NCBI GenBank assembly: GCA_027062365.1
Contig: JAMOTK010000009.1
Location: 1 to 57,233, forward strand
DNA length: 57,233 bases
Origin: Sulfurovum sp.
GTDB lineage: Bacteria; Campylobacterota; Campylobacteria; Campylobacterales; Sulfurovaceae
Direction: 5' to 3'
The notes beneath the pieces are model-generated. The model was not told the origin of the DNA. It did no database searches and saw nothing but the letters and a program-made list of their open reading frames with translations. The number at the start of each line of letters is the position of its first letter. Within the stretch, counting starts at the first letter, position 1. Shown in pieces: positions 33,308 to 43,492 of this stretch. The position numbers and the translations under genes were made by a program.

Positions 33308-33925
33308 ATGAAATTTATTTTACTTCTTTTATCTATCACAACAACATTTCTCTTCTGTGCTACAGTTACACCTATACGCATTGCAAATCAAGATTTTAAA
33401 CTAAGTATTGAAGAATATAACATCTATAATTCCAAAGGAAAAGTCATGCGTTTGTATCAAGAAGACAAGACTGATTTGGACTTTGAAATTACCCATATAT
33501 TGGAAGATACAACAGGAGGATGTGCAGATAAAAGTATCAAACAAGGAAGCTATGAAATCAATGGTACTTCTCTCATGCTCTATAGCTTTTGGGATAGAAA
33601 AGGTAGAAAATATGATGCCCCTTATGGTGCGCGTATTATCCACTATGAACTACAGCCTAACGCTACTTTTTTGCGTGTATCGAGTCGTCTTTATATAGAA
33701 ACCCAAAGAAAAAACTATGACAGTGATAGTGCTGTAAAATATCTCTTTGAAGCCCCTAAAACCCAAGAAGAGAAAGAAGCGTATCGTTTATATATCCAAG
33801 AAGTAGAAGAAAATTACAAAGGTACTTTTGTATTTGATGAAGAGGCAACATTACTTATCAACGAAGTAAAAGAAGCCCTACTAAGAAAAAAGAAAAGCAG
33901 AAAAAAGAAAAATAGATGGCACTAA
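33308..33925 (+). CDS. Hypothetical exported protein
   Basis: 205 aa from the ATG at 33308 with AAGG 9 nt upstream; the frame extends to 33290 without a better start. Signal peptide MKFILLLLSITTTFLFCATV (cleavage after FCA likely). The mature part has CADKSIKQGSYEINGTSLMLYSFWDRKGRKYDAPYGARI, a beta-rich region that I do not recognise, and a very basic tail (RKKKSRKKKNRWH). Likely periplasmic. Overlaps thiL by 4 bp at its convergent end. Confidence 0.7.
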   Translation: MKFILLLLSITTTFLFCATVTPIRIANQDFKLSIEEYNIYNSKGKVMRLYQEDKTDLDFEITHILEDTTGGCADKSIKQGSYEINGTSLMLYSFWDRKGRKYDAPYGARIIHYELQPNATFLRVSSRLYIETQRKNYDSDSAVKYLFEAPKTQEEKEAYRLYIQEVEENYKGTFVFDEEATLLINEVKEALLRKKKSRKKKNRWH

Positions 33926-34761
33926 TCTTCCTCTTTAAAATGATGGCTCTTACACGTAAAGCGTTTTTTATTGAGAGCCACTTTTGCAAAGAGTGTAAGA
34001 GGTGTCTTCGTCTCATAGGCGATAGCTTCAATAGAAGAAAGATGACAAGCATCAAAAGAGATAAGCATTTCATACTCTTCTGCACTTAATCCTATAGCAT
34101 CTTCAATGGTAATGATACTTTCAAAGCCTAAATTATTAATCTCTAGTAGTTTGTTGCTATCACAAAAGAGTCCATCAGAAATGTCCATACCTGTACGCAA
34201 ATAAGGTCGTGCTTTTGCGATAAAGTCAGCCCTTAGTGTGGGTTCTAAAAAGCGTGAGTTTTGGGCTATTTGTTCTCCTCTAAAAAGTGCTTCTAAATCA
34301 CGTTTACTTTCTCCTAACATACCTGTAAAAGCTAAAATATCTCCTTCTTTTAAACCCTTACGCAAAAGAGGATGTTGGCTTTTAGAGATAATAGTAATAG
34401 AAAGATGTAATTTATCAGCACCAATGGTATCTCCACCGATAATTTCACATCCATACTCTTGGGCTGTTTTTTCCATACTTTTACTTAGGCTATCTATCTC
34501 TTCTAAAGAAAGAGAAGGAGGGATAGAAACTGTTACGAGTGCATAGTGAGGTTGGGCATTCATCGCAATGGCATCGGAGAGATTGACAAGCATGGCTTTG
34601 CGTCCTATCTGTGCGACACTCATCCATGAGCGTTTAAAATGGACATCTTCAAAAAAGGCATCCATACTGTAAAGCGTATCGCCTACTACTGCTGCATCAT
34701 CACCGATATATTTGGAGCTTAGGCTCTCTATGAGGTATTGTTCTTTATCTATATTTTTCAT
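33922..34761 (-). CDS. thiL: Thiamine-monophosphate kinase ThiL
   Basis: 279 aa. YIGDDAAVVGDTLYSMDAFFEDVHFKRSW (metal/ATP start), AMLVNLSDAIAMNAQPHYALVTVSIPPSLS, IIGGDTIGADKLHLSITIIS and TGMDISDGLFCDSNKLLE are ThiL signatures. Phosphorylates thiamine monophosphate to the diphosphate cofactor. Somewhat shorter than the ~320-aa E. coli enzyme. It stands alone on the minus strand. Confidence 0.9.
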   Translation of the reverse strand: MKNIDKEQYLIESLSSKYIGDDAAVVGDTLYSMDAFFEDVHFKRSWMSVAQIGRKAMLVNLSDAIAMNAQPHYALVTVSIPPSLSLEEIDSLSKSMEKTAQEYGCEIIGGDTIGADKLHLSITIISKSQHPLLRKGLKEGDILAFTGMLGESKRDLEALFRGEQIAQNSRFLEPTLRADFIAKARPYLRTGMDISDGLFCDSNKLLEINNLGFESIITIEDAIGLSAEEYEMLISFDACHLSSIEAIAYETKTPLTLFAKVALNKKRFTCKSHHFKEED

Positions 34762-34889: not shown

Positions 34890-35504
34890 ATGAAAAGAAT
34901 TAAATTGACACTGGTTGCTATGCTTTCTTTAGGTCTCGCTGTAGGATGTGGTAGTAGTAAAAGTGCAAGTAACACAACTGCTGACAATATGGGAGAAAGA
35001 TTTTCTTACTTAAACCAAGGTTTTGTAACAACAGGTGGTTCTACAGTAGCATGTATCCAAGCAGGAACAGGTGATTCATATATCATTCGTACGGCATTTG
35101 ACCATACCCTTGACCCAGAAGGCACTATGACTATCATTAGTGAAGAGTATAGAAAAAGTGACTGTTCAGGTACCCCTGAGAGAACAATTCGTCAAGAATA
35201 CGTCTATTTTGTTGGTGAAGAGATAGACCAAGGGACAAGATTACAACTTGATTTTCTCTTAGCAAAGTATGACTATAGAGACCAAGATGTACGTGACTTT
35301 ACAGAAGGCGTTGTCTTTGGTGCCAATATTATTGTAGGTGATTTATTTCATACGGTTGTTGTAGGTGAAGGTGGTATCCAAACAGATACACTCAAATATG
35401 GTTTTGGAAATGCTGATGTCAATCATGATGGTGTAACCTCTGAGTTTAGAGCACAAAATGTAGATAAATACACAAGTGCGAATACTTTCTTACTTCAAAT
35501 TTAA
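34890..35504 (+). CDS. Putative lipoprotein
   Basis: 204 aa. Lipobox after a short signal: LSLGLAVGCGSSKS (acylated cysteine C20). The mature protein is beta-rich with no motif I can name, apart from an EF-hand-like DVNHDGVTSEF near the C-terminus (possible calcium site). AAAAGG precedes the ATG. Followed by a strong terminator, so monocistronic. Abundant lipoproteins often have such isolated transcripts; function unknown. Confidence 0.8.
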   Translation: MKRIKLTLVAMLSLGLAVGCGSSKSASNTTADNMGERFSYLNQGFVTTGGSTVACIQAGTGDSYIIRTAFDHTLDPEGTMTIISEEYRKSDCSGTPERTIRQEYVYFVGEEIDQGTRLQLDFLLAKYDYRDQDVRDFTEGVVFGANIIVGDLFHTVVVGEGGIQTDTLKYGFGNADVNHDGVTSEFRAQNVDKYTSANTFLLQI

Positions 35505-35657: not shown

Positions 35658-36734
35658 ATGTCACATACACTTACAATAAAAGCATTTTTTTTTAATGCAA
35701 AAACAGATTATCTTCCTTACTATAAAAACTTTACTTTAAAAGTAGAAAACACAACTAAAAGCAAAGCCCTATTGGCTCTTATCCAAGAAAAAAATAGTGA
35801 TTTTTCTTACCCAAAACAAAAATTAATTATGAAGATAAATGGTCTTATTGTGGATGTAAAAGAAACCGTAGGTACTATTGTTGACAAACTTGGTACAGAT
35901 TTATGTATAGAACCTGCCAATACCTACCGTTCTAACAATGGACTTCATATCAATGATAGTGATTTTATGCAAAGCTATGCACTCTTAGCACCATACGCCT
36001 CAGAACAAGATTTAGCCTATTATAAAACCCTCTATGCCTTACATTATGCTTCTGAGACAGAAAACTTTGATAGAGAGTATATTGGGGATGCTATTTTAAT
36101 CTTAGCACATAAAATGATTAGCCAAGGCAATGAAAATAAAGAAGCGATACTCCATGCTATTACTTCTGTACACTCTGGATTATTTGACTGTGAATATGAA
36201 AATAATCTTTTTAGAAAGAGTGACCATACTGAGACTATCGAAGCACTCAAAGTAATGGCTAAAAGTGATGACAATGAATACCCATCAATTTTAGATATGA
36301 TTAAAAATCGTTTTTGTACTAAAAAAGAAGAAAAAACACTCACTAAACCTACAAGAAAAGCCCAAACTATTGAAGCACTAGAAGACAAAACAATTGCTTA
36401 TTATGCAGGGTTAGATACTGATAATGAAACAAATATTTCTAAACTTATTGTAGATATGGGTACAAAAGAGATTCGTATGAGTAGAAAAAATAAACTCTCA
36501 GGTGTATCAATACTCGCAGATAACAAAGCATTGGCACTCAAAAAAGCAGGTACAACCCTCTTAGATGCTTATGATGCAGGTGCAGAAGTACTCATAGTAG
36601 AAGATGAAGCTAGTTATGACATGTTTATAACCCACTTTAAAAGTATAGAAAATATCATAGGAAGAAAAATGATAGGACTAGAGCTTCTTTTGGCCAAAGA
36701 TTTTATCACACAAAGTAATATGATAGAAGCCTAA
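35658..36734 (+). CDS. Cysteine-less SdhB/SdhE-like protein upstream of sdhA (possibly DUF5644 family)
   Basis: 358 aa. Residues 1-105 align with the N-terminus of SdhB encoded 1.8 kb downstream (LTIKAFFFNAKTDYLPYYKNF versus VTIKAWRFNAETDYLPYTKQY), but the [2Fe-2S] cysteines are absent. Residues ~245-345 align with the second CCG domain of SdhE: IAYYAGLDT against IAPFYGCHN, KLSGVSILAD against KCCGFHVELQ, LLDAYDAGAEVLIVEDEASYDMF against LLDAIDNSADLMVTPCPLCHLKM. Every ligand cysteine is replaced. The middle ~140 residues are helical and unassigned. Only three cysteines remain, none in those sites. Not catalytic by itself; a structural, assembly or regulatory partner of the complex is plausible. 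I believe related proteins are called DUF5644, but am not certain. Confidence 0.8.
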   Translation: MSHTLTIKAFFFNAKTDYLPYYKNFTLKVENTTKSKALLALIQEKNSDFSYPKQKLIMKINGLIVDVKETVGTIVDKLGTDLCIEPANTYRSNNGLHINDSDFMQSYALLAPYASEQDLAYYKTLYALHYASETENFDREYIGDAILILAHKMISQGNENKEAILHAITSVHSGLFDCEYENNLFRKSDHTETIEALKVMAKSDDNEYPSILDMIKNRFCTKKEEKTLTKPTRKAQTIEALEDKTIAYYAGLDTDNETNISKLIVDMGTKEIRMSRKNKLSGVSILADNKALALKKAGTTLLDAYDAGAEVLIVEDEASYDMFITHFKSIENIIGRKMIGLELLLAKDFITQSNMIEA

Positions 36735-36791: not shown

Positions 36792-38519
36792 ATGAGCAAA
36801 AACTCAGATATTAAAATCTACGAATATGATGCTGTTATCGTTGGTTCTGGACTGGCTGGTTTGGCAGCTGCCAAAGAGCTAACCGAGGCAGGAAAAAAGA
36901 CAGCGATTATCACAAAACTTCACCCTTTACGTTCACACTCTGGTGCTGCCCAAGGTGGTATTAATGCAGCATTAGGAGAAGGAGACTCTACAGAGCTTCA
37001 TGAGTTTGATACAGTCAAAGGGTCTGATTATTTAGCAGACCAAGATTGTGTGGAGCTTTTATGTAGCAAAGCACCAGAAACTGTGCGTTGGGCAGAGAGA
37101 ATGGGAGCAACTTTTTCACGTGATGAAAAAGGAAATATCGCTATCCGTCCTTTTGGTGGTCAATCAAAACCTAGAGCATGTTATGCCAAAGATAGAACAG
37201 GTCTTGCTGTACTTCAAGCGATTTATGAACAAGCCCACCGAGCAGGGATTGAAGTCTTTGATGAGTGGTATGCTTCTGATTTAATCTACAAAGATGGCAA
37301 AGTATCAGGTGTTGCTGCCTATGATATTCGTACGTCAGAACCTGCTATTTTTAATGCAAAAGTTACGATGTTTGCCACGGGTGGTCATGGACGTGCCTAT
37401 CGATTTAACTCCAATGCCCATGCCAATACAGGAGATTCTCTTTCTATTGTAGCACGTCATGGTTTGCCTCTTGAAGATATGGAATTTGTACAATTTCATC
37501 CAAGTGGGCTAGGTGGTTCTGGGGTGCTTATCTCCGAAGCTGCTAGAGGAGAAGGTGGTCGTTTATTTAATTCTTTAGGTGAACGTTTTATGAGTAAATA
37601 TGCACCTAATGCTATGGAACTAGCTTCTCGTGATGTGGTAAGCCGTGCGATTATGGAAGAAGTACGTCAAGGTAGAGGGGTTGGAAAAGATGGACAATCG
37701 GTCAATATTGACCTTACACATCTTGACCCTGAGATTATCTTGACACGTTTGCCTGAATTACGTGAACTAGCTATTGCTTTTCAAGGGCAAGACATGCTCA
37801 AAGAAGCTATTCATATCTCTGCAACAGCACACTATTCTATGGGTGGGATTCCTACAAATATTAACTGTGAAGTACAAAAATCTCCTACAGAACTTGTGGA
37901 AGGTTTTTATGCAGCAGGTGAATGTTCTTGTGTCTCTGTACATGGAGCAAACCGTTTGGGTGCGAACTCTGTACTTGAAGCCCTACTTTTTGGTCGTCAC
38001 GCAGGTCAAAATATGGCGAAAAAAATTGATGAAGGCATTACACTTAGAAAAGCTGCACCTTCTGATGCTGATGCAATGCTAGAAGAGATGAATACAATCA
38101 AAACTTCTAATGGCTGTGAATCTGTACCAAAGCTAAGAGAACTACTTCAAAATGGTATGACCAAAAATGCTGGTGTATTTAGAACCAAAGAATCCCTAGA
38201 AGAGCAAATAGCCCTCATAGATGACCTTCTTGAACGCTTTAACCATATTCGTATTGATGATAAATCTAATACTTTTAATACCGACTTACAAGAAGCAATT
38301 GAACTTAGTCACATGTTAGAATTTTCTAAATTTATTGTCGATGGTGCATTAAACCGTGAAGAGAGCCGTGGAGGTCATTTTCGTGAAGATTTCCCTACAA
38401 GAGATGATGAAAATTATCTTAAACATACCTACGCATACATGGACAAAGACTTTAACATGAGCCATGAATGGGGTGAAGTGACATTGGGTAAATTTGAACC
38501 TAAAGAAAGAACATATTAA
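36792..38519 (+). CDS. sdhA: Succinate dehydrogenase/fumarate reductase flavoprotein subunit
   Basis: 575 aa. FAD loop AVIVGSGLAGLAAAKEL, covalent-flavin region LHPLRSHSGAAQGGINAALG, active-site HPSGLGGSGVLISEAARGEGG, and C-terminal NREESRGGHFREDFPTRDDENYLKHT with the catalytic arginine. No Tat or Sec signal, unlike the periplasmic MfrA of Campylobacter jejuni (established knowledge), so it should face the cytoplasm. Partnered with sdhB and sdhE downstream; the complex uses CCG-domain SdhE as its membrane-associated electron-transfer part and lacks classical SdhC/D. The physiological direction is not evident. Confidence 0.95.
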   Translation: MSKNSDIKIYEYDAVIVGSGLAGLAAAKELTEAGKKTAIITKLHPLRSHSGAAQGGINAALGEGDSTELHEFDTVKGSDYLADQDCVELLCSKAPETVRWAERMGATFSRDEKGNIAIRPFGGQSKPRACYAKDRTGLAVLQAIYEQAHRAGIEVFDEWYASDLIYKDGKVSGVAAYDIRTSEPAIFNAKVTMFATGGHGRAYRFNSNAHANTGDSLSIVARHGLPLEDMEFVQFHPSGLGGSGVLISEAARGEGGRLFNSLGERFMSKYAPNAMELASRDVVSRAIMEEVRQGRGVGKDGQSVNIDLTHLDPEIILTRLPELRELAIAFQGQDMLKEAIHISATAHYSMGGIPTNINCEVQKSPTELVEGFYAAGECSCVSVHGANRLGANSVLEALLFGRHAGQNMAKKIDEGITLRKAAPSDADAMLEEMNTIKTSNGCESVPKLRELLQNGMTKNAGVFRTKESLEEQIALIDDLLERFNHIRIDDKSNTFNTDLQEAIELSHMLEFSKFIVDGALNREESRGGHFREDFPTRDDENYLKHTYAYMDKDFNMSHEWGEVTLGKFEPKERTY

Positions 38520-38529
38520 GGAGGTTATA

Positions 38530-39543
38530 ATGAGTGAAGTACAGATAAATGAAGCATCTAATACAAGAAAAGTGACCATCAAAGCATGGCGATTTAATGC
38601 TGAAACAGATTACTTACCATACACAAAACAGTATGAAATGGAAGTAGGCAAAGATGAACTTATCCTTGACCTTATGAATAAAATAAAATGGGAACATGAC
38701 GGAAGTTTTTCATATAGACGTTCTTGTCGCCATGGTATTTGTGGGGCTTGTGCCATTAAAGTCAACGGTAAATCTGTTTTGGCATGTAAACAAAATGCCA
38801 TTGAACTTTTGGATTTGTTTGACAATGACATCACACTAGAGCCAAGTAGCAAAAAACGTGCAGTCAAAGATATGATTATTGATAAATCAGATTTTTGGGA
38901 AAAACATGCACAAGTGAAACCTTATATTGTAGCAGACATAGACCCCACTCCTCAAACAGAGAGCAAACAGTCTATTTCACAATTTAACTCCTTGCTTGAT
39001 GCAGACCTTTGTATCCAATGTGGTGCGTGTCATTATGCCTGTCCTGCCCTTGAAGTCAATGATGCTTTTTTGGGGCCTGCTGCTTTGGCTGCTGCGTATA
39101 GATTTACAGCTGATACAAGAGATGAAGCCACACAAGAGCGTCTTGAGATTACCTTTGAATCAGGTGCAGGTGTTTGGGATTGTGTGAAATGTTTTGAATG
39201 TGCTGAAGCCTGTCCAAAAGAAGTGAATCCTATCGAAAAGATTGGAAAACTTCACAATATGCAATTTGAACATGGTGTCGCTATTTCTAATATCGCTACA
39301 CGTCACGCTGAAGGTTTTTTAAGAGGCATAAAGAAGACAGGATACTTAGATGAAGCCGATATTGTTACCTATTCAGAGGGTTATTTAGGTATGTACAAAC
39401 ATATAGGTACTGCTGTTAAAATGCTTAAAGTGGGTAAAATACATTGGCATTCAGGTATTCCATTTATCAATTCTATCCCTAAAATTAAAAATCTTGATGA
39501 AGTACAAAAACTCATTAAAATTTCACAAACCAATAAGCTATAA
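38530..39543 (+). CDS. sdhB: Succinate dehydrogenase/fumarate reductase iron-sulfur subunit
   Basis: 337 aa from the ATG at 38530, with a perfect AAGGAGG upstream (an upstream in-frame ATG at 38494 lies inside sdhA). SCRHGICGACAIKVNGKSVLACK binds [2Fe-2S]. CIQCGACHYACP and CVKCFECAEACP are two CxxCxxCxxxCP sets, whereas classical SdhB has one such set and one CxxCxxxCP. About 80 residues longer than classical SdhB, at the C-terminus. Ten bp after sdhA and nine before sdhE. Confidence 0.95.
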   Translation: MSEVQINEASNTRKVTIKAWRFNAETDYLPYTKQYEMEVGKDELILDLMNKIKWEHDGSFSYRRSCRHGICGACAIKVNGKSVLACKQNAIELLDLFDNDITLEPSSKKRAVKDMIIDKSDFWEKHAQVKPYIVADIDPTPQTESKQSISQFNSLLDADLCIQCGACHYACPALEVNDAFLGPAALAAAYRFTADTRDEATQERLEITFESGAGVWDCVKCFECAEACPKEVNPIEKIGKLHNMQFEHGVAISNIATRHAEGFLRGIKKTGYLDEADIVTYSEGYLGMYKHIGTAVKMLKVGKIHWHSGIPFINSIPKIKNLDEVQKLIKISQTNKL

Positions 39544-39552
39544 GGAGAAAAG

Positions 39553-40449
39553 ATGAGCGAACAATTACATTATGCACTATTTACAGGCTGTACAGCCAAA
39601 CAATCTACCCCTGAATTACTTTCATCTACACTAGCCGTAGCTGATAAACTAGGGATTAAAATTACGATTTTAGAAGAAGCTTCCTGTTGTGGTGCTTCAC
39701 ATCTTCAAGATTTTGATGAGTTCTTAGCCCATGTTCTCAATGCAAGAAATATCTGTTATGCCGAAAAGCTAGGACTTACGATGATTACGATTTGTAATAC
39801 CTGTCAGCTTAATTCTGCCATGACGAAACATGCTTTAGACAAAGATGCAGCACTTAAAGCTAGAGTCAATGAAAAACTAGCAGAAGTTGGGTTAGAATAC
39901 AAAGGTACATCAGAAATCAAACACTTTCTCTATGCAATTATAGATGAATATGGACTGGAAAATGTCAAAGAAAAAGTTACTGTGCCTTTGAGTCATCTCA
40001 ATATTGCACCTTTTTATGGTTGTCACAATATTAGACCATCAGAATTACATGAAACGTCAAATGGAGGAGAAAACCCTTATGTTCCCAACTCTTTAGACAA
40101 ACTTATCTCTGCACTAGAAGGGAATCCAGTCGATTATGAGAGTAAAAATAAATGCTGTGGTTTCCATGTAGAACTTCAAGCCAATCATGCCTCAGAAGTT
40201 TTATCGGGAAATGCCCTTTTAGATGCCATTGATAATTCGGCTGACCTTATGGTAACCCCTTGTCCTCTTTGTCATCTTAAAATGGACACTTACCAAGGAA
40301 GCATTTCTAAAGTCATGGGAAGAGAAGTAGAACTCCCTGTACTTCACATGCCTCAAATGGTAGCACTTGCTTTAGGCTGTACCGAAAAAGAAATTGGACT
40401 CAATTTTCATGTTCAAAAAGCAAAACATCTTTATAGTACAAGTGCTTAA
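39553..40449 (+). CDS. sdhE: CCG-domain subunit SdhE (heterodisulfide-reductase subunit B-like)
   Basis: 298 aa with two CCG domains. First: YALFTGC, EEASCCGASH, TICNTCQLN. Second: IAPFYGCHN, NKCCGFHVE, VTPCPLCHLKMD. All cluster-ligand cysteines are present. In type E SQR/fumarate reductases (as in Campylobacterota and archaea) this subunit passes electrons between the SdhB clusters and the quinone or methylmenaquinone pool. GGAGAAAAG precedes the ATG. Last gene of the sdh group. Confidence 0.93.
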   Translation: MSEQLHYALFTGCTAKQSTPELLSSTLAVADKLGIKITILEEASCCGASHLQDFDEFLAHVLNARNICYAEKLGLTMITICNTCQLNSAMTKHALDKDAALKARVNEKLAEVGLEYKGTSEIKHFLYAIIDEYGLENVKEKVTVPLSHLNIAPFYGCHNIRPSELHETSNGGENPYVPNSLDKLISALEGNPVDYESKNKCCGFHVELQANHASEVLSGNALLDAIDNSADLMVTPCPLCHLKMDTYQGSISKVMGREVELPVLHMPQMVALALGCTEKEIGLNFHVQKAKHLYSTSA

Positions 40450-40473: not shown

Positions 40474-41160
40474 TTATAAAAGATTATTTAAAATAAGATT
40501 TTTCTTAAAAATATCTTTATAAACTTGTGTCTCTTTTATCGCTACAAGGGTCTTCACTTGCTTCAGATGATGTACATCTGAACCTAAAAAATCAATCATA
40601 CTATTTTGACTTAGAAATATGGCTTTATCTTGTGCATCTTTACCATAATGACCACCAAAAGAGTTGATATTCACCTGAAAATAAATACCTAATTTTTTGA
40701 GTGCTTTATACTCTAATTCAAAATCTTCTATATAACGATAACGCTCAGGATGGGCTAAAAGAGGGGTATAACCTGTGGAGATAAGTTTCTCTATCATACT
40801 CTCAAAGTCTAAAGGCTTTGCCATATAAGAGGTTTCAAAGAGGACATATTTATTGGATAAGGTTAAAAGTTTACCTTTTTCTATATGTGTAATAAATTCA
40901 TCATCAAGATAATACTCTGCTGCTGCTTCAATCTCTATCCGTAGTCCTGCTTGTTTTGCCATAATTTGAAGTTCTTCTAACCCTTTCATGATAGTTTGCC
41001 TTGTATTTCGGTAGCTATCCATCATGATGTGAGGTGTAGTAATGAGTTTGTAATACCCTGCTTCTTCCAAAGCTTTTAGAAGTTTTAAACTCTCATCCAT
41101 GTCTTTTGCCCCATCATCTAAAGCAGGGATAAGATGTGAATGTAAATCTATATTTAACAT
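40474..41160 (-). CDS. cpsB: CpsB/CapC-type tyrosine-protein phosphatase (PHP fold)
   Basis: About 228 aa from the ATG at 41160 (MLNIDLHSHLIPALDDGAKDM); in-frame upstream ATGs (41196, 41259) would overlap the kinase gene and give non-homologous extra sequence, though 41196 is possible. PHP metal motifs: DLHSHLIP, TTPHIM, LLAHPERYRYIED, FLGSDVHHLKQ. CpsB enzymes dephosphorylate the tyrosine tail of the cognate kinase that regulates polysaccharide export. Directly downstream of the Wzc-like gene, same strand. Confidence 0.88.
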   Translation of the reverse strand: MLNIDLHSHLIPALDDGAKDMDESLKLLKALEEAGYYKLITTPHIMMDSYRNTRQTIMKGLEELQIMAKQAGLRIEIEAAAEYYLDDEFITHIEKGKLLTLSNKYVLFETSYMAKPLDFESMIEKLISTGYTPLLAHPERYRYIEDFELEYKALKKLGIYFQVNINSFGGHYGKDAQDKAIFLSQNSMIDFLGSDVHHLKQVKTLVAIKETQVYKDIFKKNLILNNLL

Positions 41161-41185
41161 AGGAGTATCATCCACATTATGTTGA

Positions 41186-43492
41186 TTACGTATCATCTTC
41201 TTCATAGTACCCATGCCCATCATAATATCCATAGCTTCCTCTTTTCTTCTTAACATCATTGAGTACCAATCCTAAATTGGATAATTTTTCTATTTTATTA
41301 AATTTTATTAAATTCTTTAAAAAAAATTTTTTAGAATAGTCTGCTCTTACAATGTAAAGATTTATATCTACATAATGCATCAACTCCTTAGCATCGGTCA
41401 CCAAACCAATAGGAGGGGTATCAATAATAATAATATCATAGCCTGTTTTAAGCTCTTCAAGAATACCATAAATACCTTGATTGTGTATAAGTTCACTAGG
41501 ATTAGGAGGGATAGCTCCTGAAGATATAATATCAAGATAAGGATACTGCGTACACTGTATCACATCTTTTAAGGCTACTTGTTTATTGAGTAATTCACTT
41601 AACCCTATCTTGTTTGGTAGATTAAATCTTGTATGTAAAGTAGGTTTTCTAAAGTCAAGATTTAAGATAATTGTTCTTTTTATAGAAAGGCTCATAATAG
41701 CCCCTAGATTGGTACAAAGCGTAGTTTTCCCCTCTTGTCCTACGCTAGAAGTAAGTAAAATAATTTGTGAGCCCTCTTGTTGACGCATAAACTCTAAGCT
41801 ACCTCGTAAATGTCTAAATGATTCTGCTACAGAAGATTTGGGTGTTTCAAATACCTTTATTTTTTTGGGTAAATTTTTCTTTTTATCTCTGATATGAGGA
41901 ATAGTCCCTAAGATAGGGTATGCTACTAATTGTGAAACATCACTTTCATCTTTAATCTTGGTATCTAAAAAAACCCTCAAAAAAGCAAAAAGTATACCCA
42001 AAGCAAGTCCTAATAAAAAACCTATCATTACAATAAATTTTCGTTTTGGTTTGATAGGAGAGGTAGGAAGCAATGCCAAATCTAACATTCTATTTTTAGA
42101 GATACTTGATTCTTTTACCATTTGAGCTTCAGATTTTTGTTTCAAAAGATAGCTATTAATCTCTTCATGCATTTTAAATTTATGCTCTAATTGTCCAAAT
42201 TGACGCTCTTTTTCAGGTAAAACCTGTAACTTTTTACGCTGTTTTTCAATATTAGTAGTGAGTAAATATTTCCTTTTTTCAAGGGTTTTTACTAAATTGT
42301 AGCTGGTCTCTTTAATACTATTTTTTAACTGTTTAATCTTGTGGGTACTTTGAATTACTACAGGGTGTAAATTTGTATAGTCTTGACGTAATGTATTTCT
42401 TTCGATGATTGTTTCTTGAAGCTCTTTCATCAATTGTGCCAAAATAGACTCTTCCTTTGCCACACCTGAGATAGAGAGTGTTTCTATCTTCTTAGCAGAT
42501 TGAATGTCTGTATAAAAAGCCTTTAACATCGCTTCTTCTATCTCTAAATTCATCAAATCTGTCTCATAGGTATCAATACGTGCTAAAATAGTCTTTGCAT
42601 TATGTGCTACATTGACCACTTTAGTCTCTTCTCTAAAATCTTCCAAATGTGAAGCAGATGTTTCGATATTATGAGACACTGAATATAACTGTTTTTCGAT
42701 AAAAGACAAACGCTCTGTAGCTTCTTGCGTTTTGGTTTCTATATTTTGTTGGATATAAGCTTGGGCTAAGGCATTGGCATACTCTTGAGAACGAAGGGCT
42801 ACAGTATCTTCTACTGAGACTTGTAAGATAGTAGAATGCTCAGAATATTGTACCACAGAGACTCTCCCAAAGGTACGACGTGAGGCATCGATAAGAAATT
42901 GATATTCAGCATCATAGCTATCATGCTTCTTAGTAAGTATCAATGAAAAAGTAGAAGTATGTACTTTTTCTCCATATTCATGTACCCTATCATAACTAAA
43001 GGTATTTCCCAATAACCTGCTAAAGAAACCTTTTTCTTTTATCATCAATCGATAGTGTGTTTTATCTATGCTATGCACATCAAATAAGATACCATAACCA
43101 CGTGTCATAGAGACGCTAAAAGGTGAATTTTTATAGATTTCTGTAGCTCGATAATGCTTTACTTCATAATAATGCTCTCGAAAATCCATCTTTTGCAATA
43201 CTTTATCTGAAAGATAACGTGATTTTATGAGGTCTTTTTCTGTAGAGGCATTGATAGCCCCTCTACCCATAGCGATAGAAACCACATCTTTTGCATAATC
43301 ATCTTTATCTACCCCTACTTTGATAGAAGCCGTTGCTTTATATACATTGGGTAAAAAATACGCATAATAACTACCGATAGAGCCAAAAATAAGCATAGAG
43401 AGAAGTATCATCCATTTGTACTGATAAATATCAAAAAACACTTTTTGAACATCTATTTCTACAGGTTCAACTTCACTGCTTATTTTATCCAT
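41186..43492 (-). CDS. wzc: Wzc-like polysaccharide co-polymerase / tyrosine autokinase
   Basis: 768 aa. N-terminal Wzz domain between two membrane helices (~30-50 and ~495-515, IGFLLGLALGILFAFLRVFL), long periplasmic coiled coil (residues ~260-440), then a cytoplasmic BY-kinase domain: Walker A TSSVGQEGKTTL (~580), Walker A' region NLDFRKPTLH, Walker B YDIIIIDTPPIG. The C-terminus RGSYGYYDGHGYYEEDDT is the tyrosine cluster that is autophosphorylated. Sets chain length and export of capsule or exopolysaccharide. Interestingly, no glycosyltransferase genes are nearby. Divergent from bpt. Confidence 0.9.
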   Translation of the reverse strand: MDKISSEVEPVEIDVQKVFFDIYQYKWMILLSMLIFGSIGSYYAYFLPNVYKATASIKVGVDKDDYAKDVVSIAMGRGAINASTEKDLIKSRYLSDKVLQKMDFREHYYEVKHYRATEIYKNSPFSVSMTRGYGILFDVHSIDKTHYRLMIKEKGFFSRLLGNTFSYDRVHEYGEKVHTSTFSLILTKKHDSYDAEYQFLIDASRRTFGRVSVVQYSEHSTILQVSVEDTVALRSQEYANALAQAYIQQNIETKTQEATERLSFIEKQLYSVSHNIETSASHLEDFREETKVVNVAHNAKTILARIDTYETDLMNLEIEEAMLKAFYTDIQSAKKIETLSISGVAKEESILAQLMKELQETIIERNTLRQDYTNLHPVVIQSTHKIKQLKNSIKETSYNLVKTLEKRKYLLTTNIEKQRKKLQVLPEKERQFGQLEHKFKMHEEINSYLLKQKSEAQMVKESSISKNRMLDLALLPTSPIKPKRKFIVMIGFLLGLALGILFAFLRVFLDTKIKDESDVSQLVAYPILGTIPHIRDKKKNLPKKIKVFETPKSSVAESFRHLRGSLEFMRQQEGSQIILLTSSVGQEGKTTLCTNLGAIMSLSIKRTIILNLDFRKPTLHTRFNLPNKIGLSELLNKQVALKDVIQCTQYPYLDIISSGAIPPNPSELIHNQGIYGILEELKTGYDIIIIDTPPIGLVTDAKELMHYVDINLYIVRADYSKKFFLKNLIKFNKIEKLSNLGLVLNDVKKKRGSYGYYDGHGYYEEDDT

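Follow-up and report, generated by a model that had tools for sequence, protein, structure and literature searches.

In Campylobacterota, the cytoplasmic succinate dehydrogenase of the E type (SdhABE) comprises the flavoprotein SdhA, the iron-sulfur subunit SdhB, which shares a three-cluster cysteine set with FrdB, and SdhE, which like HdrB has two copies of the CX(n)CCGX(n)CXXC motif. In thiol:fumarate reductase, SdhB- and HdrB-like parts are fused in subunit B (TfrB), which retains its clusters. The same domain order, devoid of clusters, recurs in fused Helicobacter members of the family described here, and the SdhB-like plus HdrB-like build without clusters is seen in a crystal structure from Helicobacter pylori (PDB 3KWL) that belongs to the same family and which, from its sequence length and homology, we infer to be HP0468 itself. 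Hydrogen is reported to upregulate HP0468 in H. pylori, and the gene is present among GWAS hits (PMC6090961); it also appears in a list of proteins conserved in those Helicobacter that have sheathed flagella (PMC9570263). Neither of these papers nor PMC3397514 gives a function for the H. pylori-type protein. This protein is about 500 aa long and has both CCG domains, whereas its Sulfurovum counterpart, here called X, lacks the first.

X is encoded in a Sulfurovum sp. contig (JAMOTK010000009.1), of which the 57,233 nucleotides analysed are referred to as the window. The open reading frame is real and lies directly ahead of sdhABE:

33922..34761, minus strand: thiL, upstream of X, a probable thiamine-phosphate kinase by homology
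34890-35504: small lipoprotein-like open reading frame, upstream of X
35658..36734, plus strand: X, 358 aa, cysteine-poor, with a cluster-free SdhB-like part fused to a single CCG domain of the SdhE/HdrB type; DUF5644 family
35658..35957, plus strand: X residues 1-100, domain of the ubiquitin-like/Fer2_3 type lacking the [2Fe-2S] loop, from alignment and fold
35958..36272, plus strand: X residues 101-205, helical domain (DUF5644), counterpart of the SdhB/FrdB dicluster domain
36273..36377, plus strand: X residues 206-240, variable linker, where the first SdhE CCG domain is missing
36378..36731, plus strand: X residues 241-358, CCG/HdrB-like_C domain without cluster ligands
36792..38519, plus strand: sdhA, flavoprotein of the cytoplasmic SdhABE (TIGR01812, E 2e-219), with no Tat leader seen
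38530..39543, plus strand: sdhB, with all cluster cysteines, the closest intact relative of X residues 1-179
39553..40449, plus strand: sdhE, two-CCG HdrB-type, with all cluster cysteines, the closest intact relative of the X C-terminus

Homology and predicted structure

The initial annotation had aligned the N-terminus of X with SdhB and its C-terminus with the second CCG domain of SdhE, and both BLASTP and profile comparison bear this out. Residues 5-178 match the SdhB of the window (BLASTP E 2e-17) and residues 259-338 the second half of its SdhE (E 4e-5), while a profile built from 54 relatives aligns residues 1-179 with the SdhB profile (hhalign E 1.8e-29) and residues 258-344 with that of SdhE (E 7.4e-12). 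Judged by sequence, the homology to SdhB and SdhE is far beyond chance. Two refinements emerge: the SdhB match extends over a helical domain (Pfam DUF5644) that is a degenerate form of the dicluster domain, and sister lineages possess the first SdhE CCG domain, which is absent from the X of the window. In Pfam searches (E up to 1) HdrB-like_C was matched in 50 of the 54 family members (best E 9.6e-11) and DUF5644 in 41 (best E 4.7e-9); Fer2_3 was matched in 20 (best E 1.4e-6), and the X of the window, as a single protein, falls below the Pfam cut-off for the DUF5644 family. By these profile matches X is a member of the DUF5644 (PF18712) plus HdrB-like_C (PF22196) family, and the Pfam matches together with the SdhB alignment identify DUF5644 as a degenerate form of the dicluster half of SdhB-type proteins. 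Two weak DUF5644 matches elsewhere in the genome (contigs C19 and C65) fall in open reading frames that look unrelated and were taken as chance.

A PDB search with the single X sequence returned nothing meaningful; only the profile search matched, finding 3KWL at E 2.1e-26 and E. coli FrdB at E 5e-5, and a Helicobacter homologue matches 3KWL at E 1.5e-136. The AlphaFold2 model of X (pLDDT 93.1, pTM 0.87, with low pLDDT around 201-230 in the linker) has 3KWL as its best Foldseek match in the PDB, followed by FrdB/SdhB chains. It superimposes on Wolinella FrdB over 199 residues (VIA-align Z 17.1, rmsd 3.0), and its residues 231-358 superimpose on HdrB (7bkb_B) over 122 (Z 12.3, rmsd 3.3). X is thus predicted to combine the SdhB/FrdB fold with an HdrB-like half, in line with what the sequence had suggested: homology and the SdhB/FrdB fold coincide over both domains, and the CCG-domain fold of SdhE/HdrB is recovered in the C-terminal part. 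The order of blocks and the fold are common to X and the SdhB/SdhE of the adjoining E-type enzyme (38530-40449), as are most fold-determining residues (F12, D17, P86, R91, Y130, G143); X differs in that its [2Fe-2S] loop and the ligands of both the dicluster and CCG domains are missing, and in occurring where SdhABE is absent.

Loss of the cluster ligands

The cysteine set for three clusters is gone from X. In essentially all 54 relatives, 11 of the 12 ligand-cysteine positions of SdhB are deleted or replaced. The [2Fe-2S] loop is deleted near residues 53-56 of X, and the positions of SdhB C66, C71, C86 (in 53 of 54 relatives) and C221-C228 are deleted; that of C74 is mostly L or F. The dicluster positions are filled instead, C161 by Y in 50 of 54 (Y122 of X), C164 by L in 42 of 54 (L125 in the window), C167 by L or Y (L128 in the window) and C171 by S in 52 of 54 (S132 of X); Y122 and S132 show X-specific conservation. 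One of the two CX(n)CCGX(n)CXXC copies is deleted from the X of the window, and the ligands of the other (CCG2) are replaced in X relatives, with sporadic Cys at single positions; the position of SdhE C202, for example, holds Cys in 11 of 54 relatives. The replacements of KCCG by KLSG and of PCPLC by EDEAS that had been read by eye hold in the alignment, GCH to GLD fits it, and the proposed loss of the cofactors is supported. The conserved residues at former ligand positions, taken with the low dN/dS reported below, suggest selection for a filled, cluster-free core, and X very probably moves no electrons.

The sole ligand position kept is that of SdhB C218, which is Cys in 37 of 54 relatives (C178 of X). 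The retention of Cys178 in Sulfurovum speaks against a pure scaffold, as it could indicate a residual metal or redox role. Another proposal is that X binds another small ligand or metal through the CCG cleft or Cys178 and is a putative sensor or enzyme; besides the kept cysteine, it draws on a weak resemblance in fold between the CCG-like halves and Asp/Glu racemases (rmsd 6.6 over 195 residues, with a Z of about 8). However, this Z lies at the stated noise level of the tool, C178 is not conserved in the Arcobacter-type members, and an invariant set of catalytic-looking residues was not found in X, which leaves the proposal quite improbable.

Split and fused forms

In Sulfurospirillum-, Campylobacter- and Wolinella-type genomes X takes the form of two adjacent genes, one for a cysteine-free SdhB-like protein of about 210-235 aa and one for an SdhE/HdrB-like protein of about 210-281 aa. 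The presumed locus numbers Cj1459/Cj1460 were not named in any of the papers searched. The second part of the Sulfurospirillum type matches SdhE over its full length (hhalign E 6.1e-32) and has no ligand cysteines in either CCG domain. Its model (pLDDT 80.8) is a full HdrB fold, with Z 31.9 and rmsd 2.0 over 271 residues to HdrB 8rvy_B; residues 230-495 of 3KWL align with it over 258 residues (Z 26.8, rmsd 2.4), so that 3KWL matches both the X model and that of the split partner. Some Helicobacter genomes encode a fused protein of about 500 aa, and the shortened fusion of the window type is found in Sulfurovum, Arcobacter and many Campylobacter. The split genes adjoin wherever they were seen, and this constant adjacency together with repeated fusion suggests that the halves function jointly.

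A few copies are broken. In a Campylobacter-type genome (G247, L144 5006-6078) X is interrupted by stops within the profile match and divided into pieces of 186 and 87 aa, probably a pseudogene, and in a Sulfurovum MAG (L094 6001-7046) it is split into open reading frames of 164 and 150 aa by a frameshift or an assembly error.

Genomic neighbourhood and distribution

The position of X ahead of sdhA led the initial annotation to place it in the service of the neighbouring complex. Where X and SdhABE co-occur they are indeed adjacent or near in 12 of 14 genomes, from five families, and X lies directly 5' of sdhA on the same strand in 35 loci, as would befit a subunit devoted to SdhABE, whether structural, decoy or regulatory. 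The spacing argues otherwise: the gap between X and sdhA, 57 bp in the window and mostly 100-190 bp in the 35 loci, exceeds the 10 and 9 bp between the genes of sdhABE and gives no clear sign of co-transcription. A promoter scan gave chance-level results. The genes thiL and truD adjoin X in a conserved manner, with divergent orientation in most lineages, and thiL-truD-sdhABE or thiL-sdhABE adjacency is also seen in genomes without X; X therefore stands beside sdhABE because the neighbourhood was inherited, with thiL, truD and sdhABE adjoining with or without it. Adjacency to thiL/truD is in turn lost in Arcobacter- and Helicobacter-type genomes, and a functional link of X to these genes was set aside as history.

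The distribution points the same way. Two surveys combined cover 298 genomes, with cytoplasmic SdhE as the marker of SdhABE; the X counts are approximate, because the X profile also matches SdhB, at about 1e-20 to 1e-41, and a call accordingly required a second or stronger match. X occurs in 14 of 70 Campylobacterota genomes with cytoplasmic SdhABE versus about 175 of 228 without, a strong negative association (Fisher p about 1e-17, which ignores phylogeny). A true SdhB/FrdB subunit would be confined to the operon of its flavoprotein, but X is at home in genomes that lack the complex. Occurrence without sdhABE, which the initial annotation had named as evidence against its own reading, is thus seen in about 175 genomes, and the expected tie to SdhABE did not survive the survey. 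A dedicated SdhABE factor was rejected on distribution and neighbourhood, and the subunit reading is improbable.

Several loci merit separate mention. In three Arcobacter-type loci (L036, L037, L043) X lies 3' of a murA-like gene and 5' of a protein of about 200 aa with an N-terminal membrane segment, and no sdh genes are found near it. A contig labelled Fluviicola sp. (L127) has sdhEBA, X, thiL and truD in Campylobacterota-type order and is probably mis-binned. Immediately 3' of sdhE or of the split X pair, a protein of about 130 aa that begins with MPKINRYVDIDTVERE is encoded repeatedly (L044 11164-11607; L045 14414-14800; L143 4748-5140); it may be a class II superoxide reductase. Downstream of sdhE in the window, two minus-strand open reading frames (40474-43492) overlap by about 70 bases; we presume them to encode a Wzc-like tyrosine-kinase/chain-length protein and a CpsB/YwqE-like phosphatase, the latter with an uncertain start codon.

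Origin and selection

Most Campylobacterota have retained X, Helicobacter and Campylobacter among them, even in the absence of SdhABE, and it therefore probably has a role of its own other than electron transfer. A one-pattern search of genome contigs from ~85,000 species found it almost only in this phylum among the best 80 of 113 matches. Its absence is patchy, affecting most Sulfurimonas-type genomes and several other lineages, and X is therefore dispensable in the lineages that lack it. In a 59-row tree X forms one clade (100/100) whose grouping with cytoplasmic SdhB is well supported (97/96), while FrdB and the periplasmic MfrB fall elsewhere; with profile homology and fold, the tree upholds the earlier view of X as a paralogue descended from SdhB and SdhE. 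The stem is long (1.48), so that the branch point inside cytoplasmic SdhB is placed only approximately. In family f4, two loci (L176, L177) carry extra SdhB-/SdhE-like genes besides cytoplasmic SdhABE, and these branch near MfrB.

The long stem and tips show that X evolves much faster than SdhB, and this, like the few broken copies, might suggest a decaying, functionless remnant. But dN/dS lies well below 1 (0.08-0.45 in 13 close pairs), contradicting decay, the frame is open in nearly all of about 189 genomes, both halves were retained through repeated fusion and fission, and X has conserved residues of its own, making a remnant very improbable.

A putative scaffold and its possible partner

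The homology, fold, ligand loss, single clade, phylum-wide spread, independence of sdhABE, purifying selection and fixed two-part unit are close to certain. The explanation that we favour, and hold to be somewhat better than even, is that X arose once, long ago, by duplication of the SdhB plus SdhE pair of the cytoplasmic E-type enzyme, lost its cluster ligands, was then kept as a cofactor-free protein and was repurposed phylum-wide as a putative non-redox binding scaffold. X would carry no cluster; from fold and conservation, its SdhB-like and SdhE-like halves may still pack as a rigid scaffold whose surfaces would bind another cytoplasmic protein, making X a neofunctionalised adaptor and not an SdhABE subunit.

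The best specific proposal for the partner, a tentative one, is that X acts at the SdhB site of SdhA or FrdA as a putative assembly chaperone or placeholder, a cluster-free SdhB mimic that would hold the flavoprotein until the genuine iron-sulfur subunit binds, and would thus stand in for the flavinylation factor (SdhAF2, also called SdhE, a different protein of the same name). X descends from SdhB, the SdhA binder, almost all genomes with X have FrdB or SdhABE, and the flavinylation factor family PF03937 was found in none of 61 Campylobacterota genomes searched, with positive controls detected. In E. coli this factor and FrdB use the same surface of FrdA, a precedent for a competitor there (PMC5773532). 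Unrelated to X in fold and sequence, it would be a functional analogue only, a non-redox occupant of the SdhB site on SdhA/FrdA. On the other side, the [2Fe-2S] loop, which in SdhB lies near the flavoprotein, is deleted in X, many genomes with FrdABC or SdhABE are without X, and X and FrdB vary independently within the genus of the window and in family f7. A link to FrdABC (raw odds ratio about 11) was lost within genus g1 and family f7 and was discarded as probably phylogeny. That the emptied SdhB plus SdhE/HdrB arm was kept phylum-wide as a putative SdhA/FrdA chaperone or placeholder, replacing the missing flavinylation factor, we consider rather unlikely.

The analysis supplies an origin and an architecture for a protein of Helicobacter, Campylobacter and related bacteria that already has a crystal structure. 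The favoured reading would mean that a phylum has retained a whole electron-transfer arm as a scaffold emptied of its clusters. X is also a testable candidate for a part in complex II assembly in bacteria without the usual flavinylation factor.
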